Source: Thalassotalea psychrophila (GTDB lineage: Bacteria; Pseudomonadota; Gammaproteobacteria; Enterobacterales; Alteromonadaceae). Taken from it: 64,000 nucleotides of DNA. The stretch lies in NCBI RefSeq assembly GCF_031583595.1, contig NZ_CP134145.1, positions 806,001 to 870,000 on the forward strand, written 5' to 3'. A program made the position numbers and the translations under genes. The notes under the pieces are model-generated. The model saw only the letters and a list, made by a program, of their open reading frames with translations, was not told the DNA's origin and did no database searches. Position 1 is the first letter of the stretch. Each line of letters begins with the position of its first letter. This document shows positions 1,587 to 47,683 of the stretch, piece after piece.

Positions 1587-1600
1587 TGACAACGTTATCA
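1587..1600. promoter_or_regulatory. LacI-type operator overlapping the sulfatase promoter
   Basis: TGACAACGTTATCA, a near-perfect palindrome matching the copies at 23210, 27076, 29127, 39413, 43675 and 47670. On the minus strand TTGATA (1596-1601) is a -35 box and ATAGTT/TAGTTT (about 1573-1579) a weak -10 at 16-17 bases, placing the start of transcription shortly before the sulfatase ATG. Assignment to the window's LacI regulators is inference. Confidence 0.65.
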
Positions 1601-1745
1601 ATAGGTTGTTTCAAATTTACATTAAATTTACTTTTTTAGTTCGAAAGTTAAAAATATCAGTGTAAAGATATGTAAAACCAATGGTGAATGATAATTTTAT
1701 TGTTAATGTTATGTTGAATAAATACATTTAACAGTGGTTATTATT

Positions 1746-3116
1746 ATGAGTACTACAAATAGCAAAGCAACTATTGCAGCAAATCGATTTGGCCTAGGTG
1801 CTAAACCCGGTGAGTTAGAGCTAGCCAAACAAAACCCTAAAAAATGGTTAGCTGCGCAATTAACTCCTGTAGTGTTTGATCAAAACTTGCCTTCATCCAA
1901 TGACGTATTTTTGCAGCTCAGTAAATATCAAGCGATCAAAAGACAAAACAAAAAAAATAAAGTCAGTGAAGAACAAGATAAAAAAGACAATAAAGTCAGA
2001 CAAAAATTTATCCAAACAACCTACCGGAAACTTGCTAGTGATACTTTTGTGCAAAGTATTAACAGTGATAATAGTTTAGCTTGGCGGTTACTCGACTTTT
2101 TCTCAAATCATTTCAGTGTCTCGGCAAACGGAAATGTAATGACCGCTATTGCTGCCACTCTTGAAAGGGAGGCTATTGCAGCCAACTTATTTAATAACTT
2201 TGAAGATATGTTGCTAGCCGTGAGTAAACATCCTGCAATGCTGACTTACTTAAATAATGAACGTTCATTTGGTCCAAACTCTAAATTAGCGACAAAATCT
2301 AAAAAAGCGAAGAAAGGCGTTGGCCTTAATGAGAACTTAGCTCGCGAAATATTAGAGTTACACACTTTAGGTGTGAAGGGGGGCTATAGTCAGGCTGATG
2401 TTATTGAACTTGCTAAAGGCATAACAGGCTGGAGTGTAGCCAATTCGCATAAAGAAGATGCAACCGGCTTTATATACAGGGCGTGGGGTAAAGAACCTGG
2501 AAATAGAGTGTTATTGGGTAAAACTTACAAGCAAAAGGGAATTAAGCAAGGTGAGGCAATGTTAAAGGGTTTGGCCAACCATCCTAACACCGCAAAATTT
2601 ATTTGCCATAAACTGGTAAAGCATTTCATTAGTGACAACCCTGACTCACAGTTGGTAGATATTTTAGTTAAACGCTGGCAAGAAACTGGCGGTAATATAA
2701 AAGAAGTAATGCTAGCGTTAATTAACTCTGAACAGGCATGGCATGTTGAGCAAGAAAAGTTCAAAACGCCACGAGAGTTTTTACAATCTACCTATCGAGC
2801 ACTGCCGCAAAATACTATCAAATTTAAACAATTGTTTTTTACATTAAATACATTTGGTCAACAACCTTTTCAAGCCGGTTCACCAGCAGGTTTTAGCGAT
2901 GAGCAACAAGATTGGGATGGCGGTAATGCGTTAATGTCGAAAATTGATTGGACAACCTTATATGCAAGTAGGATAAGATCAAATGCAGAAAATATTATGA
3001 ATAATACTTTAGCATTAGCTTCATCACACAATACCTACAAGGCAGTTGTTAGAGCCGAAAGTAGAAAACAAGCATTAGTAATGTTGCTAATGAGTCCTGA
3101 ATTTTTACGTAGATAA
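1746..3116 (+). CDS. DUF1800 family protein
   Basis: Member of the DUF1800 family, recognised from the N-terminal 'ATIAANRFGLGAKPGELE' block, the central 'NENLAREILELHTLGV' block and the terminal 'LLMSPEFLRR' signature. No enzymatic function is established for the family. I start it at ATG 1746 (456 aa); a GTG at 1734 in frame would add four residues. No signal peptide is visible. The stop is followed after 14 bases by the DUF1501 gene, the usual partner of this family, so the two are almost certainly co-transcribed and may form a complex. A Lys-rich stretch lies around residues 65-85. Confidence 0.88.
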   Translation: MSTTNSKATIAANRFGLGAKPGELELAKQNPKKWLAAQLTPVVFDQNLPSSNDVFLQLSKYQAIKRQNKKNKVSEEQDKKDNKVRQKFIQTTYRKLASDTFVQSINSDNSLAWRLLDFFSNHFSVSANGNVMTAIAATLEREAIAANLFNNFEDMLLAVSKHPAMLTYLNNERSFGPNSKLATKSKKAKKGVGLNENLAREILELHTLGVKGGYSQADVIELAKGITGWSVANSHKEDATGFIYRAWGKEPGNRVLLGKTYKQKGIKQGEAMLKGLANHPNTAKFICHKLVKHFISDNPDSQLVDILVKRWQETGGNIKEVMLALINSEQAWHVEQEKFKTPREFLQSTYRALPQNTIKFKQLFFTLNTFGQQPFQAGSPAGFSDEQQDWDGGNALMSKIDWTTLYASRIRSNAENIMNNTLALASSHNTYKAVVRAESRKQALVMLLMSPEFLRR

Positions 3117-3130
3117 TGGGGAGTATAATT

Positions 3131-4276
3131 ATGAAAAGACGTCAATTTATTAAAACCCTTGGAGCTTCTGCGTCATTAGTTTTATTGCAAACACCAGCGT
3201 TAGCCGCTGTAAATAAATTAGTTTCTAAGCCGAAGAAAATTGTATGGGTTGTACTGCGAGGAGCAATGGATTCTTTGCATACAATAGTCCCTATTACTGA
3301 TAAAAATTATCATGTCTTAAGACCTAAGTTAGCGCCTTCAATAGCCAACGATTTATTACCTTTATCAACTGATTTTGCTTTTCACCCAGCACTAAAACAC
3401 ATGCATGGTTTATACAAAAGTAAGCAATTATTACCTATTGTTGCCGTTGGCTCTGGTTATCCAAGACGTTCTCATTTTGATGGACAGGATTATTTAGAAA
3501 GTGGCTTGTCGTCATTGGATCATGATACTGGTTGGCTAGGTCGAGCTTTAAATGAGATGACAGCAAATACGAAAGCATTAGCTGTCGCTAATTCTGTTCC
3601 TATTAGTATGCGTAGCAGCAGTAAAGTAAGTACTTGGTATCCTTCTCGTTTAAAAGATGCAGATGAAAATATCTATGAAGCTTTAATGAACTTATATCAA
3701 AATGATGAAATGCTATCGTCGCGTTTGCAAGAGGGCTTGAATACTCAAGAAATGGCAGGCAATACTTCGACCAAAAAGAAAGGTAAGTTTGTTGATTTAG
3801 CTAAATCTTGCGGAAAACTTCTGGCAAATAATGATGGTGTTGATTGCGCTATGTTAGAAGTTGGTGGTTGGGATACTCATAATAACCAGACGGTTAGGTT
3901 AAATCGACAACTTGAAGGACTTGATCAAGGGATTGCTGCACTACAAGCAGAATTGGGTGAATATTGGCAAGACACCGTTGTAATTGTTGCAACTGAGTTT
4001 GGCCGAACTGCCAAAGAAAACGGTACTGGCGGTACTGATCATGGCACCGGTAGTGCCATGTTTATTGCTGGTGGTGCAGTGCAAGGTGGTAAAGTGTTAG
4101 GAGATTGGCCTGGTTTGGCAAAAGAACAACTCTTTAATAACAGAGATTTAATGCCAACAACCAGTACATTTTCATGGATTGGCGCCGTGTTACAACAACA
4201 TTGGCAGCTAGATTCAAAAACAATTGCCAATGTTTTTCCGGATAATCCGGCATACACCACACAACTAATAAGTTAG
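3131..4276 (+). CDS. DUF1501 family protein with twin-arginine signal
   Basis: DUF1501 protein, a family related to the alkaline phosphatase/sulfatase fold, role unknown. The N-terminus (KRRQFIK followed by a hydrophobic stretch to about residue 26) is a clear Tat signal, so the protein is exported folded. 'GGWDTHNNQ' and 'EFGRTAKENGTGGTDHG' are the characteristic family blocks with candidate metal ligands. ATG 3131 is preferred over an ATG at 3116 that overlaps the upstream stop, because GGGGAG (3118-3123) sits 7 bases ahead; this gives 381 aa. It forms an operon with the DUF1800 gene and ends at a strong terminator (4301-4331). Confidence 0.88.
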   Translation: MKRRQFIKTLGASASLVLLQTPALAAVNKLVSKPKKIVWVVLRGAMDSLHTIVPITDKNYHVLRPKLAPSIANDLLPLSTDFAFHPALKHMHGLYKSKQLLPIVAVGSGYPRRSHFDGQDYLESGLSSLDHDTGWLGRALNEMTANTKALAVANSVPISMRSSSKVSTWYPSRLKDADENIYEALMNLYQNDEMLSSRLQEGLNTQEMAGNTSTKKKGKFVDLAKSCGKLLANNDGVDCAMLEVGGWDTHNNQTVRLNRQLEGLDQGIAALQAELGEYWQDTVVIVATEFGRTAKENGTGGTDHGTGSAMFIAGGAVQGGKVLGDWPGLAKEQLFNNRDLMPTTSTFSWIGAVLQQHWQLDSKTIANVFPDNPAYTTQLIS

Positions 4277-4403: not shown

Positions 4404-6557
4404 GTGCATTTTTCAAACTCATTTTTTCAACTTTTCTTTTTCATTCTAACTCTAGCAAGTATTTGGCTTTCGCCGACTTTATCTGCAAACGAGAACAATA
4501 ATGCTTGTATTAGCTGTCATCAAGATCAAACAACCCAATGGCAAAAATCTGATCATGCAAAGTCTATGGCTATTGCTGATAAGAGCAGTGTGGTTGGAAA
4601 TTTTGATAAGCAAACGGCAGAGCATTATGGACAAAAAGCTTACTTTTATCATCAACAAGGTAAGTATTTTGTCGATATTTCTTATGATGAAAAAACTGAA
4701 ACTCTACCAATAACTTATACCTTTGGCCATTACCCTCTGCAGCAGTATCTAGTAGAAACCGAAAAAGGTCGATTTCAAGTTTTACCATTTGCATGGGACG
4801 CTCGCTCAACTGAAGAAGGCGGACAACGTTGGTACCATAATTATCAAAATGAAGAAATTAAGCCAGCAGACAGACTTCATTGGCGTCAACCACTACAAAA
4901 TTGGAATGGCATGTGCGCCGACTGTCATTCAGATGGTTTGAAACGAAACTATGACAGCAATAACAACCAATTTGATTCAAGCTTTACTGGTATCAATGTT
5001 GGTTGTGTGTCATGTCATGCAAACATGCAAGGCCATGAAGACAAAAAGCAATCTAGTGAAATTAAACAAGGTGGTTGGCAACGAACCTCTGGTGAAAGTA
5101 CCGCTCATTGGGTAGGTGATAAACGTGATAATAGCTTTATGGACCAGTGTTTTTCGTGTCATGCGTTACGCGCACCACTAACGGATGGTATCGACCCGAG
5201 TAAAAAATTCTTAGATCAATTTGCACCACAATTTATCCAAGCTCCTAACTATCATGTTGATGGTCAAATTAAAGAAGAAGTGTATGTTTATGGCTCATTT
5301 TTACAAAGTAAGATGTATGCCAATGGCGTAAACTGTATTGATTGTCATGATCAGCACACAATGAAAATTAAAATTCCAGATAATGGTTTATGTTTGCAAT
5401 GTCATGCCAGTGAAGTATTTGACAAACCTGAGCATCATCACCATGAAAAAGGCAGCGAAGGGGCACAGTGTGTAAGTTGTCATATGCCTGAAAATACTTA
5501 TATGGGCGTTGATGATAGACGTGATCATAGCTTTAAAATCCCTCGTCCAGATTTATCAGAAAAATTCGCTAGTCCAAATGCTTGTACAACATGTCATGAG
5601 CAGCAAGATAATAAATGGGCGGTAAGCTTGTTAAAATCTTGGAAAGTTAAACCAAGGGTTGATAGTGAAACTAGACAAAATTTTTGGCGTTTACAGCATG
5701 GTCAAAGTATTACTTTAGAGCAACATCTAGCGATAGTTAACGATGACGCAATTGATATTATCTCAAGAGCAACAGCATTACAGATGTTGGCATTTAGTAC
5801 TGAACCGCTAAGTCATCAACTGTTAAAACCATTCGTTAACAATGATGAAAACTTACTTCGCCTTGCAGCCGCAGGCACAGCTTCAATAATAAACGCTGGT
5901 TTTAGAGCCGAGTTATTAAGCCCATTACTTATTGATGATTTAGCCGCTATTCGTGTTGCAGCTGCTCGCTCGTTATTGGATGTGTATATTCCAGACAGTG
6001 ACAAGGCAAGTTTTAAAAGTGCCTTAAATGAGCTTATCTTTGCCAATAGGCAAAGTGGTTGGCGTGGTGAAGGGCGGTTAAACCAAGGTATGGTTGATAT
6101 GGCTAAAGAAGATATGCAGGCTGCTGAAAAATCTTATTTGAAAGCCATTTCTGTTGATCCTTACTTTGATTCTGCCTATTCAAATTTGGCCGAATTGTAT
6201 CGTACTCAAGGTAAAACTAATCAAGTAGTTGCGGTATATAACAAAGCGTTAAAAAATATCCCTATTTCAGCGATATTGCATTATGGCTACGGACTGCATT
6301 TTGTTCGCCAACAGCAACTCAACAAAGCGATTCCTTTATTTAAAAAATCAATGGCATTATCTCCACAAGATCAACAATATGCCTATATTTATGCCCTTGC
6401 TATTGATGGTAGTGGAGATACTAATAGAGCTATTGGATTATTAAAAGAAATGGTAAACGTATATGCGCAAAATCAGCAGTTGGTAGAATTAGGTTTGTCA
6501 TTGTCACAAAAAGCAAATAGCAGATCTGACTTTGATTATTTTATGAAATTAAGGTAA
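4404..6557 (+). CDS. Octaheme c-type cytochrome with C-terminal TPR repeats
   Basis: Exported multiheme cytochrome of 717 aa starting at a GTG codon. An N-terminal hydrophobic signal (to about residue 28) leads into eight CXXCH heme-binding motifs in roughly residues 33-400 (CISCH, CADCH, CVSCH, CFSCH, CIDCH, CLQCH, CVSCH, CTTCH), the arrangement of cytochrome c554-like proteins. After about residue 430 come HEAT-like helical repeats and then TPR repeats (about 560-700) suited to protein binding. It is likely a periplasmic or surface electron-transfer protein. It follows the DUF1501 gene behind a terminator, so it probably has its own promoter. Electron donor and acceptor cannot be told from sequence. 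Confidence 0.85.
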   Translation: MHFSNSFFQLFFFILTLASIWLSPTLSANENNNACISCHQDQTTQWQKSDHAKSMAIADKSSVVGNFDKQTAEHYGQKAYFYHQQGKYFVDISYDEKTETLPITYTFGHYPLQQYLVETEKGRFQVLPFAWDARSTEEGGQRWYHNYQNEEIKPADRLHWRQPLQNWNGMCADCHSDGLKRNYDSNNNQFDSSFTGINVGCVSCHANMQGHEDKKQSSEIKQGGWQRTSGESTAHWVGDKRDNSFMDQCFSCHALRAPLTDGIDPSKKFLDQFAPQFIQAPNYHVDGQIKEEVYVYGSFLQSKMYANGVNCIDCHDQHTMKIKIPDNGLCLQCHASEVFDKPEHHHHEKGSEGAQCVSCHMPENTYMGVDDRRDHSFKIPRPDLSEKFASPNACTTCHEQQDNKWAVSLLKSWKVKPRVDSETRQNFWRLQHGQSITLEQHLAIVNDDAIDIISRATALQMLAFSTEPLSHQLLKPFVNNDENLLRLAAAGTASIINAGFRAELLSPLLIDDLAAIRVAAARSLLDVYIPDSDKASFKSALNELIFANRQSGWRGEGRLNQGMVDMAKEDMQAAEKSYLKAISVDPYFDSAYSNLAELYRTQGKTNQVVAVYNKALKNIPISAILHYGYGLHFVRQQQLNKAIPLFKKSMALSPQDQQYAYIYALAIDGSGDTNRAIGLLKEMVNVYAQNQQLVELGLSLSQKANSRSDFDYFMKLR

Positions 6558-28859: not shown

Positions 28860-28880
28860 CGTTAGTATTATTATTTAAAT

Positions 28881-32088: not shown

Positions 32089-33705
32089 ATGAACAAAAAA
32101 TCATTATTGGTATCGTCATTGACCGCTCTGGCTTTAATGGGCTGTGATGGATCGTCTGATGAAGGTACTGAACCAGTATTTAAAGCTTTTATGGAAGCGA
32201 TTGAATTTACAGATGCTAATTTAAAAGCATGTGTAGAGCAAACTATTGAAGATCAGGATATAAACCAATCAGCACAATTAACGCATTTAGATTGTGAACA
32301 ACCAATTGTTGATGCTTCTGGCTTAGAAAATTTTTATAGTCTAGAGTCTATCAACCTTGCAACTGCTGGTATGTCATGTGAAGAGTATGATCAAGTACAA
32401 AAGCAGTTGAATTTGCCTGGATTTCAATATGGCCGCAATGAGCCAATTGATGTACAACAAACTGACGAGTGTTTTTATAATGAATTAGAGTTTGCCGATG
32501 CACATTTAAGAGAGTGTGTTGTAAACGAATATAACCTAAATGGCTGGGCATCGACTGACGATTTAACTGTGCTTAGCTGTACTAATAGTGCAATTAAATC
32601 TATTGCAGGCTTGGAGGTTTTTACCGAGTTAATGTCATTAGATATTACAGAAACTTCAGTAAACTGTGCAGAAGCGTTTGATTTTGATGAAAGTAACCCG
32701 AACACAACGGTAGCTAACCCGAGCGTTTGTAATATTTCTAATATTGATTTTTCAGCACCGGTTGAGCAATGTGTTACTGCTAACACACCTGAAAGTGGGC
32801 TTGTTATTCATTTAGAGGCGCTTACTTGTGCAGATGAGAACATCATAGATTTAACCGGTTTAGATTTATTAACCTCATTAAAAACATTAGATATTTATGA
32901 AACAGGCACTGATTGTCAAAGCATTACTTTGTTAAAACAGGACTTACCTGAAACAGAGATGTTCGTTCCTGAACAATGTGTTTTAAATGCAGACATGCTA
33001 TTAACAAATTTACCGCGTCCATACCCGGTATTAGATGAAGCGGGTGAAATTGCTTATGTTACTTTCCCTGATCCTAAAACGCGCATGTGTTATGAAAGAC
33101 TGACTGAAAATAAAACTAAACTAGGTCAAGTGACGCAATTAAAGTGTGGTTGGAATAATGAAGATGAGAGAGGGCTGGGTTCGTTTGAAGGTGCCGAATA
33201 CCTTTTATTTGTTAAAGAAGTAGCTGGTTCACATAGTGTGGTACAAGATTTATCGCCACTTTATAATTTACCAGCATTAACCCATATAGATATCGCTTAT
33301 AACCTAGTAATTACTACCGAGCAATATGCTGAACTTGGTGAGCATCAAGGTGCCAACATTACTCATTTGCGTGCTATGGGTATGAGCTTTGTAAATTTAG
33401 ATGCATTAGAGCAATTCACTGCTGCAATAGAGTTAAACTTAAGTTCAAGTAATTTGAGGTTTGATCCTGAAGCGTCAGATTGGGGAGCTATTCCAAAAAT
33501 GACAAGCTTGAAAACATTACTTTTAAAGAAAAATAAAATACAATCATTACAGCACCTGCATGTTATGACTGCTCTAGAGGAAATTAATATTCAAGAGCAA
33601 GCTGATAATGGTATTTTAACATTACCATGTACAGAGGTTGATGCTCTGCAAGCTGCACTTCCTGACCTGAATATCATTCAAGATGCAAAAACTTGCTTTG
33701 AGTAA
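32089..33705 (+). CDS. Leucine-rich-repeat-like lipoprotein paired with the TonB receptor
   Basis: 538-aa lipoprotein with lipobox ALMGC (Cys19). The body contains about four imperfect Cys-bearing repeats (roughly residues 40-115, 130-205, 215-285 and 325-380) of the form DANLKACV...LTHLDC...I.DASGLE....LESI, then plainer leucine-rich repeats (about 380-520). I do not recognise a named family. Its place directly behind a glycan TonB receptor, with an AGGGGAA ribosome site and the shared promoter, suggests a surface or periplasmic glycan-binding partner, a job done by SusD in Bacteroidetes (inference). Confidence 0.8.
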   Translation: MNKKSLLVSSLTALALMGCDGSSDEGTEPVFKAFMEAIEFTDANLKACVEQTIEDQDINQSAQLTHLDCEQPIVDASGLENFYSLESINLATAGMSCEEYDQVQKQLNLPGFQYGRNEPIDVQQTDECFYNELEFADAHLRECVVNEYNLNGWASTDDLTVLSCTNSAIKSIAGLEVFTELMSLDITETSVNCAEAFDFDESNPNTTVANPSVCNISNIDFSAPVEQCVTANTPESGLVIHLEALTCADENIIDLTGLDLLTSLKTLDIYETGTDCQSITLLKQDLPETEMFVPEQCVLNADMLLTNLPRPYPVLDEAGEIAYVTFPDPKTRMCYERLTENKTKLGQVTQLKCGWNNEDERGLGSFEGAEYLLFVKEVAGSHSVVQDLSPLYNLPALTHIDIAYNLVITTEQYAELGEHQGANITHLRAMGMSFVNLDALEQFTAAIELNLSSSNLRFDPEASDWGAIPKMTSLKTLLLKKNKIQSLQHLHVMTALEEINIQEQADNGILTLPCTEVDALQAALPDLNIIQDAKTCFE

Positions 33706-37500: not shown

Positions 37501-39322
37501 ACTTTTGAGGATCTGCTGTAGTTTCACTTGTTTCTAATAAAAAGGCATTGGGTGCATTATGTCCTTCATTTTCATCAATTGTGACTGAGTATGAAGTTAC
37601 ATTCTTATGTTTCCACGTAAACCATACCGTACCGTCACCAGCGCTTGTACCTAAAGTGCCAATATCATTTGCATCTGCGCCAATGCCTGTTAATACGTTT
37701 GTTGCAGGCTGGCTAAATAGTGGTAGTGCTTCAAACTCATCAACATCATTATTCCAGCCATCACCGTCAATATCTGTTGAATTACTGTTAGCATCTTTCG
37801 GGTCGGTGCCCGCAACTAATTCATCTGCATTTAAATCACCATCACCATCGATATCATCATCGATGTTCAATGTGCGACCAGTTGTTGGGTCAACACAACT
37901 TAATAAGGTGGTGTCTGGGTTAATTGCTGCATCATTACAGTCAGCGGTTAAGAATCTATCAACCATATCTGCGGTTGCAGCTGTATAACCTTCATGAGTA
38001 GGATTGCTATCACCGTCTTGATCATGGGCTGCAATACTTTCATCAGGAAACGCATCAATCGGATTTGAGCTTTCTAATGCTGCTAAACAAAACTCATTAC
38101 ATGGGTCATTATAATAATCTGGATACTCATCACCATCGCTATCAACAGATGCTGCGGCGTTAAATGGCAGGTCATCATCGCCATCGGCAATACCATCTTC
38201 ATCTACATCACCTGGGAAGTCTAAAGCATCATTTGGATCTGTTCCTAATAATCCTTCTTCTGTATTACTGTAACCATCTTCATCATTATCATAATCTACA
38301 GGAATTGTGCCACACATTTCATTTGGTGCTACACCTGTTAATGGGATAGTACATTGATCGGCCAAGTCATTACCCGTTAAGTCGGTAAAAGCGCCTATTT
38401 CATCTGGAAATGCGTCAATAGTATTTGTAGTTGTTAGTTTGTCTGCTTCACAAAATTCGTTACAAGGATCGTTGTAAGCATTAGGGTAGGTATCACCATC
38501 AGTATCAACTGAGAAGGCTGCATCGTTTTCAAAAGCGTCTTCGTCATTTAATATGCCGTCATCATCTAAGTCGTCATCAGTAACTGGTGGGTTAATAATT
38601 ACTTCTGTTGACAAAAATATATCATCAAAAGCTATTTTATCGAGCCTATCTACACCACCAGAAACAATATGTATATTTACATTTCCAGTATATGGCTCTG
38701 AAAACTCATGAATGTATTTACCAATGACCCAAGCATTACTATTGTCATCAGGTAAAGTTTCAACTATTACTTCACCGGAATCTAATATTAATTTTATTTG
38801 GTTATCACTTGGGTATACAGCTGTTTTGCTCGTTGTTTGATACACATATGATAAGTAAAGTTTGCTAGAGTTTTCTATAGCAATAGGGGCTCTTAATTCA
38901 GCTGTTTTCCCCTCGCGAGCAACATACTTCTGTGTGCCTGCTTTATCATCAGCTCGCGTATATCCCGGAGGATTATAGTATGACAATTCAGGGTAATATC
39001 CAGTTCCACCTTTTATGCCATTTTTCCAAGACCATGTGACGTCTTTTGTGCAATCGCCTTTTAAACCATTTAGTTCGGAGCTAATTAATACATAGACAGC
39101 AGCTTCTAACAATGTATTACACAGGTCGAAAGATGGATTTACAACAAGGTTTTTACCTGCTGTCGTAGAGTTTATATGATTTAAGTAATTACCACCTAAA
39201 TCGACCTCAGATGGAAAGTTTTCATCAATAGCTGCATTAGCCCCTACAGGTAAAAGCAAAGCTAACCCGAATGCTTTGCTGAACATTGTAAGTTTAGTCT
39301 TATTGGTTTTGCCGTAACTCAT
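34535..39322 (-). CDS. Giant secreted CBM/thrombospondin-type-3 repeat protein with GlyGly-CTERM
   Basis: 1595-aa surface protein. After a signal peptide (about 1-30) there are three jelly-roll domains resembling CBM4/9 (about 50-240, 535-715 and 1040-1225), each closing with an FDD(L/I) strand; the second and third are clear duplicates (shared 'VKVWFDDLELNVINDIDSDG'). Between them are many DxDxDG calcium-binding TSP3-type repeats (about 250-530, 715-790, 965-1035 and 1225-1280), and two Ig/PKD-like regions follow (about 790-960 and 1285-1560). The end, GGGAAYWLMMLLSFGFFARR, is a GlyGly-CTERM signal for type II secretion and rhombosortase. No catalytic domain is seen; it probably binds glycan at the surface. 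Confidence 0.88.
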   Translation of the reverse strand: MSYGKTNKTKLTMFSKAFGLALLLPVGANAAIDENFPSEVDLGGNYLNHINSTTAGKNLVVNPSFDLCNTLLEAAVYVLISSELNGLKGDCTKDVTWSWKNGIKGGTGYYPELSYYNPPGYTRADDKAGTQKYVAREGKTAELRAPIAIENSSKLYLSYVYQTTSKTAVYPSDNQIKLILDSGEVIVETLPDDNSNAWVIGKYIHEFSEPYTGNVNIHIVSGGVDRLDKIAFDDIFLSTEVIINPPVTDDDLDDDGILNDEDAFENDAAFSVDTDGDTYPNAYNDPCNEFCEADKLTTTNTIDAFPDEIGAFTDLTGNDLADQCTIPLTGVAPNEMCGTIPVDYDNDEDGYSNTEEGLLGTDPNDALDFPGDVDEDGIADGDDDLPFNAAASVDSDGDEYPDYYNDPCNEFCLAALESSNPIDAFPDESIAAHDQDGDSNPTHEGYTAATADMVDRFLTADCNDAAINPDTTLLSCVDPTTGRTLNIDDDIDGDGDLNADELVAGTDPKDANSNSTDIDGDGWNNDVDEFEALPLFSQPATNVLTGIGADANDIGTLGTSAGDGTVWFTWKHKNVTSYSVTIDENEGHNAPNAFLLETSETTADPQKFALRSPTLTTVEGQQITHVRLAGWVKIEMEDNAELTLLKPSLFSKSPSGNYYNPQISLHEKYNSTIDWTYFEMDYELPAGTNSLRFDLAMNQAPGVKVWFDDLELNVINDIDSDGDGISNASDNNDDSVAELADETPTLLDGEDDTPLGDDAPNSDSDAIPDDYDDDYDNDGVANPFDSDFNLFINPDLTEITTATESTLTAVAFDLDDDITYVWTINGTVDAETGNQLVFVNTDDTSGREFVVTVQATSGDEPSAVISKTIQMLGDIKNAAPRFGHTMGTTLASDRIFDVSIIDDDGDEFTFYWTLNGEQLDSTETTMTLLYADYTEDEEVTLSITATDVHGNANTQEWVVVMDNVDIDEDGYTNEQEEDAGSSPTNPDSTPVDIDGDGYSNEEEESAGTDPLDPESNLSDLDFDGWDNVYDSYPTSPLFSQPATNVLAAIGGNANINYDIPAGKDGMKWFTWFKGNPDFTANVDETAGKNALNAFLLQPGATTPATDIFQLRSPELTAVTGEKINHVRIAGWVKIEIPESSALTRLEVQAWAKNTTIDKTKTNALKLHEMFTSTTDWTYFEFDAQIDVDGEGSPADLLRVQIVMNQDPGVKVWFDDLELNVINDIDSDGDGILNAVSNNDDGDLELDGEDLTPVGGNAVDLDGDMVIDVYDDDLDNDGVHNVFDDTFNPVIAALNVTDANDTTTLTAVGYIDNSAAIEYEWKINGVVQDATTDSISFDNLSIEYSGRTFSIEVVAVSGELASMPTNTRITIPGEKQNSAPVVIFEELTDVGNGDFVVTAAMTDYDPEDADAITFKWFVNGVEVTDYNELTFTVNFADFSAGEVVEVAVEVSDQKDTVTYTKLVQLNSAPTFSFIEGETITNDEERTTEILLEAADIDGDELEVSWMVDGYPATNSNGEHVTGLNYKLNHYDYRVGATVEIVVTITDGLSITEKTLQVTLPEAEHSADELYPEGSGGGAAYWLMMLLSFGFFARRTK

Positions 39323-39412: not shown

Positions 39413-39426
39413 TGACATCGTTATCA
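39413..39426 (-). promoter_or_regulatory. LacI-type operator overlapping the CBM protein promoter
   Basis: TGACATCGTTATCA. On the minus strand TTGATA (39422-39427) is the -35 and TAGATT (39400-39405) the -10 at 16 bases. The leader before the ATG would be about 70 bases. Confidence 0.75.
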
Positions 39427-39570: not shown

Positions 39571-42123
39571 TTACTGATACATAAAGCTGGTATTTAATTT
39601 AATATCAGTATGTGAAGCACCTATTAGAATATCAAATTGTCCTGCTTCAGCTAGCCAATCATTAGTGTTTACATCCCAAAACGATAAATCGCGCTGCTTT
39701 AATGTCATAGCTACTGTTTTAGTTTCACCTGGCTCTAACCAAACCTTAGAAAAACCTTTTAATTCTTTAGCGGGACGGTCTACACTTGCTTCAACGTCAT
39801 TTAGGTATAATTGTACAATTTCACTACCGGCTACTTTACCTGTATTTGTTACCTTAACTTTAATTTCCACTTCTTCACCTGAAGAAATGTTTGCAGAAGA
39901 AAGTTCTACGTTATCATAACTAAACGTAGTGTAAGACAAGCCATGACCAAATGGGAAGATAGGCTTAATATTTTGCTGTTCAAACCAACGATAACCTATA
40001 AATACACCTTCTTTATAGAAAGATTCTTTTGAGTTGTAGTCGTTCAGTGCAATTGCAGCGGTATCTTCTAAAGCAACGGGTAGGGTGATTGGCATTTTAC
40101 CGCTAGGATTAACATCACCAAATAGCGCATCAGCATAAGCGTGACCGCCTTCCATACCGCCGTACCAGCCCCACATAATTGCTTTGGCATTGTTTACCCA
40201 TGGCATTTCAACGGCTGAACCTGCATTTAAAAATACCACTGTGTCAGAGTTTGCCGCTAATAAATTTGCAATAACTGTGTCTTGGCCGTTAGGTAGTTTC
40301 ATATCTACACGGTCTTGCGACTCACGATCATCAGCATGGCTTAAGCCGCCAAAGTAAATAACTGCATCAGCTGCTTTTGCCGCTGCAATGTATTCTTCTT
40401 TGCTAGCAAATAAGCTGCTTGGGGCATCCCAACCTAAAACAAAGTTTTGGTTACCATCGTATTGAAGTTCAAACTTGTATTCTTTATCAATACTTAGTTC
40501 AAGAGGGTAGTTAAACTCCTTACCATCTTCACTTGAATGCGTTAATATTTTTTTGCCATTAACTTTTAACCTAAAGTCACCAATAGCACTTAGTTTCAAG
40601 GTATGAACACCTGATTCTAAAGGCTTAATCGTGGTCTTCATGGTGACATGTTCCATGCTTGAATCCGCAGGAGCGGTGTAAGCTGAATCGGGCACCCATG
40701 ACCAATGTTTCCAATTTTTACGTGCTTTCTCTTTCCAATTAGATACTTGCCACGCTGGTGTGCCTGTACCAGGGTTACTCCTAATGATGTAATCGCCAGC
40801 AATTGCAGGAATACCAGTATCAGAGCGGGTGCGTAAAAAAGTAATATTTACATCGTCGCCAAGCTTAGTTTTTAAACCTTCTAGAGGGCTGATTTCGTAA
40901 AGTGATTTAACTTGTGAAGAGCCGCCGCCTTTACCGTGCTCTTTGTCAGTATTTGGACCAAGTACTAAGATGTTTTGAAGTTCATCTTTTACTAATGGTA
41001 ATACACCGTCGTTTTTCAGTAATACAATACCTTCTTCGGCAATTTTACGAGCAGCCTCTCTGTGTTCAGGAATGTTACGCTGACCAGATAAACGGTTTTT
41101 ATCCATCATGCCAATACGTAATTGCACGCGTAAAATACGACGAATTTTGTCGTCTAAAACGGCTACCGGAATTTTTCCTTCTTTCAGCATTTTCAAAAAT
41201 GGTTTAGCTAATTTGTAATCATCAAAGCTTTCAGCGCGAGTACCCATTTCGATATCCAGACCGTTCATGGCAGCGTCATAGGTATTAATGTTTACGTCCC
41301 AGTCGGTAAGTAATACACCGTCAAAGCCCCATTCACCTTTTAGAATATCGTTAACCAAGTACTTACTTTGGTTGGCATTGGTACCACGGAAACTATTGTA
41401 AGCACCCATGATAGTGTAAACTCCGGCCTCTTTAACGCCGGCTTCAAATACTGGCAGGTACACTTCACGTAAGGCTCGTTCACCAGGAATAGCATCAACT
41501 TTTTGACGATTCAACTCTTGCGTATTTAGGGCGTAATGCTTTAAGTTTGCAGCAACGTCGTTGGCTTGAATTGCTTTGATTTCTGGAATAACCATAACTG
41601 ACGCTAAATACGGGTCTTCACCAAAGTATTCAAAGTTACGGCCATAAGTTGGTAAGCGCGCTAAGTTAACACCGGGTCCTAAAATAACATCTTTACGACG
41701 ATGTCTAGCTTCCGCACCCAATACATTACCATGCAGTTGTGCCATTTCTGGGTTCCAACTTGCGGCAACGGTAGTTAATGGTGGCAAGTAAGTTGACTGA
41801 TCATCGGTCCAACCGGCAGATTTCCAGCTGTCCCTAGATACTTCTTTACGTACGCCATGCGGTCCGTCACTCATCCACATTTCGTGAATACCTAAGCGCT
41901 CAACAGATGCTATGGCAAATTTACTATTGGCATGAACAAGAGATACCTTTTCTTCTAATGTAAGCTGTGCAAGTAGGCTTTCAACTTTTTGCTCTACTCC
42001 CGCAAGCCTGTTTTGTAGCGGAGTAGCTTGTACTGTGCTGTTTGAATTTGTTTGTACGTCGGTACATGCAATTGTGCCGGTGCTTAATAAGGCTGCGGCA
42101 ATTAATTTTAGTTTATAGTTCAT
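39571..42123 (-). CDS. GH3 beta-glycosidase lipoprotein with PA14-type insert
   Basis: 850-aa GH3 enzyme anchored as a lipoprotein (lipobox GTIAC, Cys20). The barrel carries the nucleophile Asp274 in LLTDWDV. A PA14-like beta domain (about 450-600; 'LKLSAIGDFRLKVNGKKI') is inserted in the second domain, and a fibronectin III-like domain ends the protein (about 755-835). PA14 inserts usually shape the sugar pocket. ATG 42123 is chosen because GGAAAG lies 5 bases ahead and the lipobox follows; the frame stays open further upstream into the sulfatase gene. It should release terminal sugars from long or branched oligosaccharides. Confidence 0.9.
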   Translation of the reverse strand: MNYKLKLIAAALLSTGTIACTDVQTNSNSTVQATPLQNRLAGVEQKVESLLAQLTLEEKVSLVHANSKFAIASVERLGIHEMWMSDGPHGVRKEVSRDSWKSAGWTDDQSTYLPPLTTVAASWNPEMAQLHGNVLGAEARHRRKDVILGPGVNLARLPTYGRNFEYFGEDPYLASVMVIPEIKAIQANDVAANLKHYALNTQELNRQKVDAIPGERALREVYLPVFEAGVKEAGVYTIMGAYNSFRGTNANQSKYLVNDILKGEWGFDGVLLTDWDVNINTYDAAMNGLDIEMGTRAESFDDYKLAKPFLKMLKEGKIPVAVLDDKIRRILRVQLRIGMMDKNRLSGQRNIPEHREAARKIAEEGIVLLKNDGVLPLVKDELQNILVLGPNTDKEHGKGGGSSQVKSLYEISPLEGLKTKLGDDVNITFLRTRSDTGIPAIAGDYIIRSNPGTGTPAWQVSNWKEKARKNWKHWSWVPDSAYTAPADSSMEHVTMKTTIKPLESGVHTLKLSAIGDFRLKVNGKKILTHSSEDGKEFNYPLELSIDKEYKFELQYDGNQNFVLGWDAPSSLFASKEEYIAAAKAADAVIYFGGLSHADDRESQDRVDMKLPNGQDTVIANLLAANSDTVVFLNAGSAVEMPWVNNAKAIMWGWYGGMEGGHAYADALFGDVNPSGKMPITLPVALEDTAAIALNDYNSKESFYKEGVFIGYRWFEQQNIKPIFPFGHGLSYTTFSYDNVELSSANISSGEEVEIKVKVTNTGKVAGSEIVQLYLNDVEASVDRPAKELKGFSKVWLEPGETKTVAMTLKQRDLSFWDVNTNDWLAEAGQFDILIGASHTDIKLNTSFMYQ

Positions 42124-42148
42124 TGATACTTTCCAGAAACGGTATAAA

Positions 42149-43621
42149 TTATGATTTATTTGCGATGTGGATTTGTTGCTGTAATTGCACACTTAGATTT
42201 TCTACATCGTTTTGATATTTTTTATGTTCAGCAACGTTAACCAACTCTTCTGGATCATTGTCATGATCAAAAAGCATACGAGCGATTACTTTATCTTGCT
42301 TATTGCGCCATTCTGTATAATGAAAGCGGTTGGTTCTGATCGAATCTGAGTTTTTCCAACGAGTGAAAATCTCGTTTTTGCCTTTACTGTTTTTTGTGGT
42401 TAATTGCGGCACTAAGCTTACGCCATCTACTTGTTGTACTTTAGGAAGGTTAGCGAGTTCAACTAATGTTGGATAAATATCAACAGACTCAACAATGCCT
42501 TCAACTTTGTTGTCAGTTAAAAGCGCAGGGCCATTGAATATTAATGGTATTTGATTGGCTACACTGTAGGCAGAGTGTTTCGCCCATAAGCCATGTTCAC
42601 CTAAACTCCAACCATGATCTCCCCAAAGTACGATTATCGTATTTTCATCTAACTCTAGTTCACTTAACGTATCTACTATTAGGCCAACTAAAGCGTCTGA
42701 ATAGCTTGTTGCAGCAAAATAACCATGAACTAATTGTTTAGCTAAATCGGCAGGCATAGCACCTTTTTTAGGCATACCGTAGTAACTACGAAGCTCTCCC
42801 CAAGAATGGCTAGAGTTTTTAGGAGCATCTTTGGCGAGTGAATTGCTAGTAGCTACAGGTAACTCATCGTGGTTATACATATCCCAATATTTCTGCGGAG
42901 AATTGAAAGGTAAATGTGGCTTTTTTAAACCGACAGCCATAAAGAATGGTTGTTTATTTTTCTTAAATGTCTCAAGTTCTTGTGTAGCACGCTTTGCAAT
43001 TTGACCATTGAAATATTGGAAGTCATCAACGTTAGCTATTTCAAAAGCTGGACCTTTTTTATTGTCATCAAATACCTTGTTAGCTTCAGCCGTTTGATAA
43101 TTCATGCGAATTTTAAGGTTAGCCTTTTGGTTATTTTTACCTTTCAGTTTTAGAGCTTCATCTGGGCGCCAATTTGTATGCCAACCGTCTTTTTTATCAT
43201 TTTGATTATTAAATACTTTACCTAAACTTACCGTAGTATATCCGTTACTTTTAAAGTGTTGAGCAAGGCTAATTGCATCAGGAGTATCAACGTCGGCAGG
43301 GCTAAAAGCTAAAAACCTGTCTTTGCTACCACGTATGCCAGTCATCAGGCTTGCTCGCGATGCACCACAAACTGGAATATTGCTGTAAGCTCTATTAAAT
43401 GCCACGCCCGTGTTAGCAAGTTTATCTATATTAGGAGTTTTAGGACCTTGCTTTGCGTATGGGCCATAAGTGACGCGCATATCATCTATCATGATAAACA
43501 ATACATTCGGTTTTTCTTGGGCAACAGGTTGTTCTATTGCGAAAACAGGCATCGTTATACTTATTGCTAAAACGGTTAATATGGTCAAACCTAAGTTAGA
43601 TAAAATTTTTAGAGATCGCAT
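42149..43621 (-). CDS. Secreted type I sulfatase with CxASR motif (iduronate-2-sulfatase-like)
   Basis: 490-aa sulfatase with a signal peptide (about 1-28, ending VFAIE). The active-site motif is CGASR (Cys85), with Ala in place of the usual Pro; this is an accepted variant. 'NVLFIMIDDMRVTYGPY' and 'WGDHGWSLGEHGLWAKHS' place it near the sulfatase at 25598-27025. GAGG lies ahead of the ATG. It precedes the PA14-type GH3 by 25 bases in one operon, and the operator/promoter at 43675-43688 lies 54 bases upstream. Confidence 0.92.
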   Translation of the reverse strand: MRSLKILSNLGLTILTVLAISITMPVFAIEQPVAQEKPNVLFIMIDDMRVTYGPYAKQGPKTPNIDKLANTGVAFNRAYSNIPVCGASRASLMTGIRGSKDRFLAFSPADVDTPDAISLAQHFKSNGYTTVSLGKVFNNQNDKKDGWHTNWRPDEALKLKGKNNQKANLKIRMNYQTAEANKVFDDNKKGPAFEIANVDDFQYFNGQIAKRATQELETFKKNKQPFFMAVGLKKPHLPFNSPQKYWDMYNHDELPVATSNSLAKDAPKNSSHSWGELRSYYGMPKKGAMPADLAKQLVHGYFAATSYSDALVGLIVDTLSELELDENTIIVLWGDHGWSLGEHGLWAKHSAYSVANQIPLIFNGPALLTDNKVEGIVESVDIYPTLVELANLPKVQQVDGVSLVPQLTTKNSKGKNEIFTRWKNSDSIRTNRFHYTEWRNKQDKVIARMLFDHDNDPEELVNVAEHKKYQNDVENLSVQLQQQIHIANKS

Positions 43622-43674: not shown

Positions 43675-43688
43675 TGACAACGGTGTCA
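43675..43688 (-). promoter_or_regulatory. LacI-type operator overlapping the sulfatase/GH3 promoter
   Basis: TGACAACGGTGTCA. On the minus strand TTGACA (43684-43689) is a consensus -35 and TATTCT (43662-43667) a good -10 at exactly 16 bases. This is the clearest example of the operator arm acting as the -35 box. Confidence 0.8.
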
Positions 43689-43776: not shown

Positions 43777-44856
43777 TTACTTTATCAGCTTAGTTAATTC
43801 TTCTGCCAACATACGAGCGCCATTAACGCCTAAATGGACTGGATCTTTAGGATTATCTTCGCGTAAGTTTTTCGCTGAAGTAATTTCATCACCCTCAATT
43901 ACAGTAATATTAATGTCGCCAGATAGTTGTTTTGCTTTCACGACATCAATTACGGCTTGACGGTAAGCTTGTATTGGTTGGTCTATATGCTTGGCTTTTT
44001 GAGTTTTTGTAAATAACGGTGTTATACAATAAATTTGTGTTTCAGGGTGATATTTACGGATGATGCTTAGTATTTCATCAATGTTGCTTTGGTATTGTTT
44101 TACATCTGCTTTTGGTGAGTTCCAATCATTGTAGCCAATTAGTAAGGTGATCAGCTTAATGTCATCAAAATCTTTTAACATTTCAGCAGTTGGAATAGAT
44201 GTTTTACCCCCTCCTACAGCTATATTATATAGTTCTAAATCAAGAGCTTGTGAAACAATGTATGGGTAAGTCAAATGCGTGGCAGAACCTTGTCCAACAC
44301 CATGAGTAATAGAGTCACCTATAGCTACGTATTTTGCTTTTCTAGGTGTTTTAATTGCTAATATTTCACTGTCATCATCTAACGTAATCGATTGTAGTGC
44401 AACATTAGACCAGCTTGGCAGTGTTAAACGGTACTCTTTGTATTGCGAGTTATCGCTTTTGTAATTGAGCAAAAATTTCTTATCTTTACGCTTAAATTTA
44501 AACGTTTTTACTAGGGTATCATTTTCATACAATGCAAATTCTGAACCTCTGTTCTCTTTGGGAAGAGGAATAAATTCAAAATTAATTTCTTGGCTTTTAG
44601 TGGCTAAGTTGACAACAATGCCAGATGTGGTTTGCGCTTTTTCAGGGTTAAAAGCTAGCTTCATTTTTGGAACTGCCAAAGTTCCTTTGTTATGGCGAGA
44701 AAAGCTAACTTGCTTGTTTTGATGATATACGTAGTTTGTACCTAAATAACGAATATTGTCATTTGCTAAGTCAACTGTTTTAGCCGCCATTGCCGGGGTA
44801 ATAGCTGCGAAGGCAATTAAAGCCGTTGTAATAAAAAGGTGTTTTAAATTCATCAT
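43777..44856 (-). CDS. Secreted SGNH/GDSL esterase with N-terminal beta domain
   Basis: 359-aa exported hydrolase with a signal peptide (about 1-25, ending AMAAK). Residues 30-165 look like a beta-sandwich, and the SGNH domain follows: GDSITHG (Ser182), GGGKTS, the 'GYNDWN' block with Asn, and DPVHLG (Asp338, His341) completing the triad. A beta-sandwich in front of an SGNH domain recalls CE2-type acetyl-polysaccharide esterases, so removal of O-acetyl groups from the same sulfated glycan is likely (inference). It follows a sulfatase by 7 bases. Confidence 0.85.
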   Translation of the reverse strand: MMNLKHLFITTALIAFAAITPAMAAKTVDLANDNIRYLGTNYVYHQNKQVSFSRHNKGTLAVPKMKLAFNPEKAQTTSGIVVNLATKSQEINFEFIPLPKENRGSEFALYENDTLVKTFKFKRKDKKFLLNYKSDNSQYKEYRLTLPSWSNVALQSITLDDDSEILAIKTPRKAKYVAIGDSITHGVGQGSATHLTYPYIVSQALDLELYNIAVGGGKTSIPTAEMLKDFDDIKLITLLIGYNDWNSPKADVKQYQSNIDEILSIIRKYHPETQIYCITPLFTKTQKAKHIDQPIQAYRQAVIDVVKAKQLSGDINITVIEGDEITSAKNLREDNPKDPVHLGVNGARMLAEELTKLIK

Positions 44857-44863
44857 TGCTTTT

Positions 44864-46528
44864 CTACTTACTTAATTTTTTATTGATTTCTTGGCTTTCT
44901 TGCCAGCCATAACGTATCGCCTTTGCTGTTACCGTATCACCACTTTTAACGGCAAAAGGTTGATTGTAAACACGCCACTTTCCTCTATTTATTTGATAAC
45001 CAAGTGATGCGCCATTATTGCTATTTGCTAGTACAACTAAACCTTCATTATTGATACTAATTGTTGGCTCAGGAGTAAGAGGTTGCTTACCTTGTGGCCA
45101 AAATAGATTTGCTTGGTCAATTTCTTTTAATTTACTGTAGTCTTTTACTTTGTGCTGCCAAGTAGTGAGTGCAGCACGCATTTTAGCTAATTGCTGCTGA
45201 TGTGCAGGATCTTTAGCAAGATTATTTACTTCATCTGGATCGCTTTTTATGTTGTACAATTCTTCTTTGGGTCTTGGCAAAAACCAAGCTTTTTGAGCTG
45301 CGTTCATTTCACCGTTTTCAAACGTGCGCCATAACTCGCCCATAATAGGTAACTGCTCGCGATAGGCTAATTTTGTACCTCCGGGTTTATTCGGTAAATA
45401 GTTACGAATGTACTTAAATTCACTACTTCGAACGGCGCGTTCATAAAAATATTGTTCATCAAGTCTATCTTTTGAAGCAAATACATATTCACGTTTAGCT
45501 AGTGCATTATCTGCTAATAAGGCTGAACCTTGAATGTAACTAGGTACATCTACATTAGCCATGGCTAAAATTGAAGGTGCTAAATCGACAAAACTGATTA
45601 ATTGCTGATTTACGGTATTTTCACTGATACCTTCAGGTTGGTATTTTTCAGGCCAATGTACAACTAGAGGAACTTTTATACCACTGTCGTAAATCTCACG
45701 TTTGCCTCGAGGTAAGCCATCACCGTGATCGGTAGTCCAAATTATTATTGTATTGTCGGCCAAGCCTTCAGCTTTTAATCTGTCTAAAATGGCACCAACT
45801 TGCCTATCCATTGCTGATACATTGTTATAAATTTGCGCTAACGCTTCACGAACAATTTTGGTGTCAGGGTAATAAGCAGGAACACTCACTTCTTTAGGCT
45901 TTATAATTTGTTTAACAATGCCTTTGGCAACATTCTTGGCAACTTTTTCAGGAAACAAGGCACTTTCATGGCTGATGTTAAAATGATACATTCCAAAAAA
46001 TGGTTGATCTTGCTCTCTGCCTTTCCAGTCAGGTTTGCTACCTTCGTAATCCCAAACCGTGAAAGGTCCAGAATGAGCGGTTATTTCACTAAACTGATAA
46101 TCTAATTTAGAAGACACATAAGTGTAATAACCATTCTTTCGTAATAGCTCTGGAAATGCTTTTATTTCTTCATTTGGCACTGCGCGATAAAGTGATTCTT
46201 TATAATCGCGAGTGCGCATATGTTGACCACCAATACTTGCTTGATGAACACCAGTAATTAATCCTGTTCTACTTGGCGCACAAACACCGGCAGTAGTGAA
46301 AGAGTTTGGATACATGATGCTTTTAGCTGCTAATGCGTCAATATTTGGTGTGATCGCTATGTCATCACCAAATGCTTTCACATGAGAGCTCATATCTTCA
46401 GCAACTAATAATAAGATGTTTGGCCGCGTATTTTTTGTAATATTGTCGCCTGAGGCAGAAGTATTGAAACTAATCAGAATAACTAGCGTTGTTAGAGCAC
46501 GATTAAAGAATGTTGACTGTAAACTCAT
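44864..46528 (-). CDS. Secreted type I sulfatase (heparan-N-sulfatase-like branch)
   Basis: 554-aa sulfatase with a signal peptide (about 1-26). Motifs: NILLLVAEDMSSHVKAFG (about 37-54), CAPSR with Cys83, and 'WTTDHGDGLPRGKREIYDSG'. The AEDMS...FG and DHGDGLPRGKR blocks resemble the N-sulfoglucosamine sulfohydrolase branch, different from the iduronate-like pair in this locus. A beta-rich tail (about 480-554) is additional. It lies between LacI copy 2 (35 bases upstream) and the SGNH esterase (7 bases downstream), probably one operon. Confidence 0.92.
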   Translation of the reverse strand: MSLQSTFFNRALTTLVILISFNTSASGDNITKNTRPNILLLVAEDMSSHVKAFGDDIAITPNIDALAAKSIMYPNSFTTAGVCAPSRTGLITGVHQASIGGQHMRTRDYKESLYRAVPNEEIKAFPELLRKNGYYTYVSSKLDYQFSEITAHSGPFTVWDYEGSKPDWKGREQDQPFFGMYHFNISHESALFPEKVAKNVAKGIVKQIIKPKEVSVPAYYPDTKIVREALAQIYNNVSAMDRQVGAILDRLKAEGLADNTIIIWTTDHGDGLPRGKREIYDSGIKVPLVVHWPEKYQPEGISENTVNQQLISFVDLAPSILAMANVDVPSYIQGSALLADNALAKREYVFASKDRLDEQYFYERAVRSSEFKYIRNYLPNKPGGTKLAYREQLPIMGELWRTFENGEMNAAQKAWFLPRPKEELYNIKSDPDEVNNLAKDPAHQQQLAKMRAALTTWQHKVKDYSKLKEIDQANLFWPQGKQPLTPEPTISINNEGLVVLANSNNGASLGYQINRGKWRVYNQPFAVKSGDTVTAKAIRYGWQESQEINKKLSK

Positions 46529-46563
46529 TATTTTTCCAATGGATGTTAGTTATTGATAATACG

Positions 46564-47583
46564 TTAATTTTTGCAAATGCTTGAGGAGTCTCTGATAACT
46601 AACTCACATTCAAATATCGACTTTATTTCGTCCCAAGTATTTTGCTTTATTTTACAAATAAGCTTTTGTGTTGCTATCTGGCCAAGTAAATGAATTGGTT
46701 GTTTTACTGTGGTAATTGCAGGCCATACTTGCTGTGATACTGAGGTATCATCATAACCTGCAATGGTAAGGTCTGCGGGGACGGCTAAGTTAAGCTGTTT
46801 GGATACTTTTAATACCCCTGCTGCCATGCAATCGTTGCTAGCAAAAATTGCAGAAGGTTTATGTTCTTGTGCAAGTAGTTGCCTTGCGCAATCTTCACCT
46901 GATTCAAAAGTAAAAAGCCCCTGCTTAATCAATTGTTCGTTTAGGTAGATATTATATTCTTTAAGAGCTTGCTTATAGCCAGCATATCTTTTATCGGTAT
47001 CAGAGTGATCAGGATGACCCTTAATAAAACCGATATCTGTATGACCTAAAGATATCAAGTATTTAGTCATATCATATGCTGCTTTTTGATCATCACTACC
47101 TACAAATGGTGAATTATGTTCACTGTGAAGTGGTGAAATCCGCGTATATGGAATGTCTTTATTTTCTAGAAGTTCAATTAATTGATGATTGTCACTAAGC
47201 GGCAAGGTTAGAATTACACCATCTTGTGGTGAAGCATCTAGAAATGTTCTTATAGTTTCAATTATGTTTTCATCTTTATGGTCACAAGGAAATATCTGTA
47301 AATTATATCCTTCCGCATTTCCTTGCGCCATGGCCCCATTTTGTATTTCGAGTATATAATCAGGATTAGGGTTAGAATATAGCAAGGTGAGTATAAAGGT
47401 TTTGTTGCCTCTTAAACCTCTGGCCTGAGGGTTCGGTTTAAAGTTTAACTGGGCAACTGCAGAGTTAACCTTATCTTGCATAATAGGTCTAACATTAGGC
47501 TCTTTATTCAGCACCCTAGATACAGTTTTTACTGACACACCAGCCAAAGCGGCGACTTCTCTAATTGTAACTTTACTATTCAA
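46564..47583 (-). CDS. LacI family transcriptional regulator (copy 2)
   Basis: LacI/GalR regulator of 339 aa, clearly paralogous to copy 1 (20198-21208). The HTH (VTIREVAALAGVSVKTVSRVLNKEP) and hinge (NPQARGLRG) are nearly identical; the effector domain differs more. An in-frame ATG exists at 47607, but TTG 47583 has AGGACG 8 bases ahead and aligns with the start of copy 1. It is probably the first gene of an operon with a sulfatase and the SGNH esterase, behind an operator at 47670-47683, so it likely represses itself. Confidence 0.9.
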   Translation of the reverse strand: MNSKVTIREVAALAGVSVKTVSRVLNKEPNVRPIMQDKVNSAVAQLNFKPNPQARGLRGNKTFILTLLYSNPNPDYILEIQNGAMAQGNAEGYNLQIFPCDHKDENIIETIRTFLDASPQDGVILTLPLSDNHQLIELLENKDIPYTRISPLHSEHNSPFVGSDDQKAAYDMTKYLISLGHTDIGFIKGHPDHSDTDKRYAGYKQALKEYNIYLNEQLIKQGLFTFESGEDCARQLLAQEHKPSAIFASNDCMAAGVLKVSKQLNLAVPADLTIAGYDDTSVSQQVWPAITTVKQPIHLLGQIATQKLICKIKQNTWDEIKSIFECELVIRDSSSICKN

Positions 47584-47669
47584 TTTTATCGTCCTAATAA
47601 AAATCATTAAGCATTTGCCAATGACTCAATAATTTTTTAATTCTTCTTTAGTGAACTATGCAGTAAAAT

Positions 47670-47683
47670 AGATAACGTTGTCA
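47670..47683. promoter_or_regulatory. LacI-type operator between divergent LacI and MFS operons
   Basis: AGATAACGTTGTCA, one base off the consensus. On the minus strand TTGACA (47679-47684) is the -35 for LacI copy 2, with a weak -10 (TGCATA, 16 bases). On the plus strand an AT-rich TATTATAAA (47697-47705) could be the -10 for the transporter operon, so one site may control both directions. Confidence 0.65.

Follow-up and report, generated by a model that had tools for sequence, protein, structure and literature searches.

A palindromic operator shared by the units of a predicted LacI-family regulon serving a sulfated, probably xylan-like glycan in Thalassotalea psychrophila

Introduction

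Local sugar regulons controlled by LacI-family repressors provide the background for the locus analyzed here, which lies in a 64,000-nucleotide stretch of the Thalassotalea psychrophila genome (the window, positions 806001-870000 of the single 4,806,223-base contig). A preliminary description of the window, made from its sequence alone, had found an operator-like palindrome ahead of almost all units of a sulfatase locus that encodes two LacI paralogues, LacI1 and LacI2. As presented in the parts of PMC4052901 considered here, sites of LacI-family regulators are mostly even palindromes with CG at the center, more than 75% of them are located 30-140 bp upstream, and 72% autoregulation is reported. 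The present locus shares with these regulons an even, CG-centered palindrome, located mostly 30-140 bp upstream, transporter and hydrolase targets, and a lacI gene among the targets. Unlike the regulons presented there, it has two paralogous regulators, its roughly eleven units are split between two halves, one of its targets is unlinked in a relative, and its operator is positioned over a -35-like box. The word 'xylan' does not occur in the text of PMC4052901. This type of control is already known; two features of the present case deserve attention, namely the presence of two paralogues in one locus and the position of the operator over the -35 box.

Two other systems are relevant. NagR, the N-acetylglucosamine regulator of Shewanella, also belongs to the LacI family and, in the portion of PMC2996990 used here, is accompanied by a TonB receptor and an MFS-type permease. 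A NagR-like LacI in the source genome has nearly the same recognition helix as LacI1 and LacI2. The NagR-type operator is different: in the source genome it is TGACAGCGCTGTCA with a preceding A (the names NagR and nag were assigned by eye). Predicted polysaccharide utilization loci for sulfated xylan in marine Bacteroidetes, as far as PMC6794258 was drawn upon, resemble the present locus in combining GH10, GH3 and several sulfatases. In contrast to these, the present locus is proteobacterial, and contains LacI regulators, MFS transporters and a TonB receptor. No SusD-like protein was found by Pfam among the 40 chosen proteins that were scanned. The source bacterium is probably marine. Our literature search found no paper joining LacI, sulfatase, regulon, TonB-dependent receptor and marine.

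Results and discussion

An exact palindrome is confined to the sulfatase locus

Seven sites had been described in the window, at 1587, 23210, 27076, 29127, 39413, 43675 and 47670, and all were confirmed at these positions. With up to three mismatches to TGACAACGTTATCA, the window contains 33 matches (both strands counted), compared with a mean of 7.25 and a maximum of 16 in 100 shuffles. Six of the seven sites fit TGAYAHCGDTRTCA exactly. The exception, 47670, is AGATAACGTTGTCA, one base off this pattern. In the whole genome, exact TGAYANCGNTRTCA is found at 12 places, versus 2 for the reversed-pattern control. The 12 are composed of eight TGAYAHCGDTRTCA places (782417 to 849688) and four TGACAGCGCTGTCA places. 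All eight TGAYAHCGDTRTCA places are inside one 67-kb stretch of the 4.81-Mb contig. Two of them, 782417 and 793593 in genome coordinates, are located left of the window start and add to the sites described before. Together with the variant at 47670, the predicted operators total nine, and all nine have a central CG. The chance that evenly scattered sites would cluster so tightly is about 1e-15, which is only a guide figure because the interval was picked from the sites themselves.

The nine predicted operators head eleven glycan transcription units between 782 and 858 kb of the genome, the units being predicted from gene order. The locus is in two halves, at about 782-808 kb and 826-858 kb. 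No exact site is found in the gap between them (807600 to 829210), consistent with the earlier observation that the palindrome precedes nearly every unit of the locus and is absent before the genes in between. NagR-type sites aside, the exact motif is confined to the locus in the source genome and is kept at orthologous promoters. Many unrelated matches across the genome, which the preliminary description would have taken as evidence against a regulon, were looked for and not found with the exact form in the source genome.

The operators are conserved at orthologous promoters

LacI relatives with E < 1e-100 were seen in 3 of 147 genomes, source genome included. Close relatives of LacI1 were found in a Colwellia psychrerythraea metagenome-assembled genome (MAG; L018, G147), Colwellia sp. 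75C3 (L019, G135), an Alteromonadaceae MAG (L020, G003) and Thalassomonas sp. M1454 (L021, G148). Exact TGAYANCGNTRTCA occurs 15, 24, 13 and 20 times in G003, G135, G147 and G148, respectively, and the corresponding controls 0, 0, 2 and 3 times. NagR-type sites, recognized by a G in position 6 or a C in position 9, were set aside by hand. The remaining exact sites are on the locus contigs in 9 of 10 cases in G003, 12 of 12 in G135, 6 of 6 in G147 and 6 of 15 in G148. A matrix motif scan of the relatives covered 14 loci. In gene maps of the four genomes, sites lie ahead of genes related to sulfatases C, D, E and F, GH3, GH10, the TonB receptor, MFS and LacI, though not each of these everywhere, and some precede proteins that have no relative in the window. 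LacI genes accompany the sites in four relatives.

The operators were compared one by one with Thalassomonas sp. M1454, in which the two halves of the locus lie together. Eight of the nine are matched by a site at the orthologous promoter. For the ninth, 793593, no counterpart was found in the stretches of this genome that were read, and no further search was made. Ungapped identity between operators and their counterparts is 0.90 in the 14-mers, compared with 0.52 and 0.53 in the 30-bp flanks. Orthologous operator pairs are more alike than other pairings: of 40320 pairings, 132 score as high as the orthologous one.

Site 782417 precedes a protein of 811 amino acids (aa) in which Pfam finds only Ig-like domains. 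A search of the PDB gave no convincing match for it (best E 0.084). Among the 22 homologues listed for it is one from Pontiella sulfatireligans, named Asl1-like glycosyl hydrolase catalytic by its source. In Thalassomonas sp. M1454 the homologue has 708 aa and is located on contig C12, whereas the locus is on C32. Its operator is nevertheless kept, with 12 of 14 positions identical, or 14 of 14 if one of the two is taken from the opposite strand. The strongest indication that the gene set is defined by the operator, and not by mere neighborhood, comes from this case. Because this counterpart sits on another contig, the regulon probably reaches unlinked genes.

Two LacI paralogues are encoded in the locus

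LacI1 (20198-21208, minus strand) is encoded downstream of sulfatase D. LacI2 is the first of three genes in a putative operon with sulfatase G and a GDSL esterase-like protein (43777-47607, minus strand). Both regulators contain PF00356, the helix-turn-helix, and PF13377, the sugar-binding domain, and they are 63-64% identical to each other. Thalassomonas sp. M1454 has orthologues of both, 77% identical to LacI1 and 67% to LacI2. In a tree of 13 chosen LacI sequences, these form a LacI1 pair and a LacI2 pair, next to two further groups in Colwellia-type genomes. Four of the ten inner branches are well supported, and the LacI1 pair is just below the mark (94/97). G003 carries the same set of operators and only one close LacI, its next matches being 41% and 39% identical, so one LacI suffices for such a regulon.

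The preliminary description had pointed to the same recognition helix in LacI1 and LacI2. As an argument for a shared site this fails because the NagR-like LacI at 3219576 pairs a nearly identical helix (VSIKTVSRV, compared with VSVKTVSRV in LacI1 and LacI2) with a different operator, the adjoining TGACAGCGCTGTCA. Three of the four TGACAGCGCTGTCA sites, at 3206791-3219379, flank a LacI gene and genes that are nag-like by eye.

The fourth TGACAGCGCTGTCA site (G000:C1:3610131, L017:7131) is away from the nag-like locus, between an open reading frame (ORF) starting MNELEKFYPIKESAKKH and a short lipoprotein-like ORF. The same pairing is observed in Thalassomonas sp. M1454 (L093:3647).

The operator tends to overlap a -35-like box

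We compared 44 operators from five genomes; in 34 of these the target is one-sided. When each of the 34 is followed in the direction of its target, T is the preceding base in 32, versus 22 of 34 on the far side. A -35-like box, TTGAYA, thus usually sits inside the operator. In the four NagR-type sites the preceding base is A. The motif TANNNT follows 16-18 bp further on in 23 of the 34 one-sided sites, compared with 9 of 34 on the far side (Fisher p 0.001, an optimistic value because the sites are partly orthologous). By genome, TANNNT is present in 4 of 6 sites in the source genome (G000), 4 of 5 in G148, 3 of 7 in G003, 7 of 10 in G135 and 5 of 6 in G147. For other four-base windows, the far side reaches up to 12 of 34. 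An operator that contains TTGAYA, with TANNNT at this distance, suggests repression by blocking of RNA polymerase.

The enzymes point to a probable sulfated xylan-like substrate

The locus contains seven sulfatases, three GH10, two GH3, GH29, CE2, a deacetylase and two further esterase-like proteins, together with two MFS transporters, one TonB receptor and the two LacIs. All seven sulfatases carry the Cys-type C-X-P/A-S-R motif. No polysaccharide lyase family is among the Pfam matches of the 40 chosen proteins. The nearest solved structure to GH3a is a β-xylosidase, although β-glucosidases are also among its matches. GH10c is distantly related to endo-xylanases (best E 4e-12). The nearest entry to sulfatase D is an N-acetylglucosamine-6-sulfatase, and sulfatase G is nearest to S1_8 sulfatases. 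These sulfatase relatives alone name no substrate. By sequence, however, GH10, β-xylosidase-type GH3 and sulfatases occur together, a combination that in Bacteroidetes is described as a pattern for sulfated xylan or xylose-rich glycans in the material taken from PMC6794258. The likeliest substrate, which we favor with some reserve, is a sulfated, acetylated xylan-like glycan.

Proposed regulation and alternative explanations

We consider it highly probable that these sites serve as operators in a local LacI-family regulon whose substrate is a sulfated, probably xylan-like glycan. In the absence of substrate, a LacI dimer on the operator would block RNA polymerase. A sugar produced by breakdown would free the operator from LacI, and the receptor, transporters, sulfatases, GH10, GH3 and esterases would then rise together. 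LacI2 would be directly under the same sites, and LacI1 perhaps through read-through from sulfatase D. The shared operator-like site and its conservation thus stand from the earlier interpretation, whereas the helix argument and the lone recruitment of a sulfatase at the left edge (discussed below) do not. The present analysis adds two sites to the earlier seven and brings in the DUF1800/DUF1501 pair, which diverges from site 1587, as well as the overlap with the -35 box, the unlinked target and the probable xylan-like backbone.

Several observations weigh against this interpretation. Relaxed forms of the motif are at noise level in the whole genome: one mismatch to TGAYAHCGDTRTCA gives 40 places, compared with 47 for the reversed-pattern control, and three mismatches to TGATAACGTTATCA give 562, compared with 543. 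Because the one-mismatch count is no higher than the control, site 47670 rests on its conservation. The TANNNT test was devised after viewing the aligned sequences, and its 34 sites include orthologues. At divergent sites, the -10 spacing is kept in only 2 of 20 orientations. A general -10 weight score is marginal, being reached by 45 of 1000 shuffles, and a general promoter scan of 23100-29300 gave 24 matches versus 23.0 in shuffles, with no enrichment. The gene for MFS transporter 2 (MFS2) is about 180 bp from its predicted operator, and intergenic gaps within the putative operons reach about 276 bp. The motif is spread more widely in Thalassomonas sp. M1454, with 6 exact sites in the locus, 1 before the homologue of the 811-aa protein and 8 elsewhere. 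Among these eight, one precedes a PSCyt/PSD-type protein, one a sub-threshold PSCyt3 match and one a GH9 protein; the others have no evident glycan gene behind them.

Matches at 25744, 29346, 51347 and 53977 were dropped as operators, the one- and three-mismatch matches being at noise genome-wide. The PSCyt/PSD-type and sub-threshold PSCyt3 sites of Thalassomonas sp. M1454 (L089:3773 and L094:3832) are outside its locus. A further LacI in this genome, 47% identical to LacI1, is encoded about 9 kb from the GH9 site and may use a similar operator.

A refinement of the proposed regulation is that just one of the two LacIs reads the operator, and the other has a different target or role. We regard this as possible, though the less probable arrangement. 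The single close LacI in G003 is in its favor, and the NagR-like LacI shows that the site cannot be told from the helix. However, both paralogues are retained in the same locus of Thalassomonas sp. M1454, and LacI2 has a conserved predicted operator at its own promoter. A regulator from outside the locus, for instance the NagR-like LacI or a LacI encoded at 4547463, could also read the sites, which would tie the locus to other sugar genes. The half-site TGAYA and the CG center are common to TGACAGCGCTGTCA, and the helices are nearly equal, but positions 6 and 9 split TGAYAHCGDTRTCA from the TGACAGCGCTGTCA class, the preceding base differs, and in four relatives LacI genes are found together with the sites. 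This makes control from outside highly improbable. Nor does a -35-like box inside most one-sided sites lead us to see the palindrome as an activator site or mainly a promoter element. Dyad symmetry and a CG center exceed what a -35 box needs, placement on the box suits blocking better, and divergent sites keep the palindrome and not the spacing; such a role is very unlikely. Returning to LacI repression at a shared operator, a more elaborate form is conceivable but rather doubtful. In it, the two paralogues would respond to different sugar effectors and share one operator, which would also serve as the -35 box. Every unit of the split sulfated-xylan regulon, including the unlinked glycosidase and the DUF1800/DUF1501 pair, would then open only on two breakdown signals.

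If the operators are correctly assigned, the motif could be used to find genes serving a poorly known sulfated glycan, including genes outside the cluster. The regulon would also tie proteins without a role (the Asl1-like glycosidase relative, and possibly DUF1800/DUF1501) to the sulfated glycan. The locus lends itself well to the question of whether one operator is shared by two paralogous repressors.

Arrangement of the locus

The left half of the locus is mostly outside the window. Genome site 793593 precedes a sulfatase, GH10, a polysaccharide deacetylase and a BD-FAE-type esterase. The predicted operator at 1587-1600 (TGACAACGTTATCA) is about 44 bp before the sulfatase C operon, which runs leftwards, and about 134 bp before the DUF1800-DUF1501 genes, which run rightwards. 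Its counterpart in Thalassomonas sp. M1454 is at C32:177548, with 12 of 14 positions identical. Sulfatase C (CVPSR; 44-1543, minus strand) is the first gene of a putative operon that continues beyond the window with GH10, CE2, GH29 and sulfatase B. Gaps of up to about 276 bp are found here, so a single transcript is only presumed. The preliminary description had seen sulfatase C as a distant, lone recruit 20 kb from the rest. It instead heads a putative operon in the left half of the locus, and its orthologue in Thalassomonas sp. M1454 is inside the same 35-kb locus, one DUF1800/DUF1501 pair from LacI1. The separation is an edge effect, true only inside the window, because this half extends to the left of it.

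The DUF1800 and DUF1501 proteins (1734-4276, plus strand) diverge from site 1587 and are possible regulon members. Their arrangement is the same in Thalassomonas sp. M1454, and both are behind the MFS2 site in Colwellia sp. 75C3. DUF1800 failed as a marker of the regulon: it is present in 46 of 98 family genomes and is widespread without the locus.

In the right half, the operator at 23210-23223 (TGACACCGTTGTCA) is located between the divergent sulfatase D (CSPSR; 21446-23107, minus strand) and GH3a, and is 14/14 identical in Thalassomonas sp. M1454. GH3a is followed by sulfatase E (CGPSR; together 23271-27025, plus strand). A second candidate near this operator, 23183 (TGACAACTTAATCA), was dropped, as it is without a counterpart in the Thalassomonas sp. 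M1454 sequence compared. The operator at 27076-27089 (TGATAACGTTATCA) is a perfect palindrome, overlapped by TTGATA-16 bp-TATGCT, and precedes MFS transporter 1 (27234-28529, plus strand), which has an 85% identical orthologue in Thalassomonas sp. M1454. The next, at 29127-29140 (TGACATCGTTATCA), is overlapped by TTGACA-16 bp-TATGCT. It precedes the TonB-dependent receptor and a leucine-rich-repeat protein (29212-33705, plus strand), both with orthologues in that genome.

The secreted protein of 1595 aa (34535-39322, minus strand) had been described as a CBM protein, but Pfam finds only TSP3 repeats in it. It has a relative in Thalassomonas sp. M1454, and its predicted operator (39413-39426), about 90 bp upstream, is 14/14 identical there. 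Sulfatase F (CGASR) and GH3b (39571-43621, minus strand) are preceded at about 54 bp by the operator at 43675-43688, 13/14 identical in the same genome. The variant operator AGATAACGTTGTCA at 47670-47683 is located between LacI2, which is followed by sulfatase G (CAPSR), and MFS2, encoded with GH10c and a 513-aa secreted protein (47864-51917, plus strand). All 14 positions of this operator are kept in Thalassomonas sp. M1454, at the orthologous LacI2/MFS2 promoter.

Additional observations

A longer dyad (23196-23237), centered on operator 23210, has matching bases in 20 of its first 21 pairs. Thalassomonas sp. M1454 has an equally long dyad (C32:171883), its arms altered by matching changes on both sides of the identical 14-mer.

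A multihaem cytochrome c/TPR protein (4404-6557 in the window) has no exact operator directly before it. A 65% identical relative adjoins GH10c in Thalassomonas sp. M1454, and a 37% identical one is located between GH10c and GH3b in Colwellia sp. 75C3.

More distant LacI relatives adjoin TGACACCGGTRTCA sites (L022:8692 and 11082; L024:11072; L025:8581 and 11122; L077:8346; L078:8406). By eye, the genes near these sites are glucokinase-like and of central sugar metabolism, another branch of this operator type.

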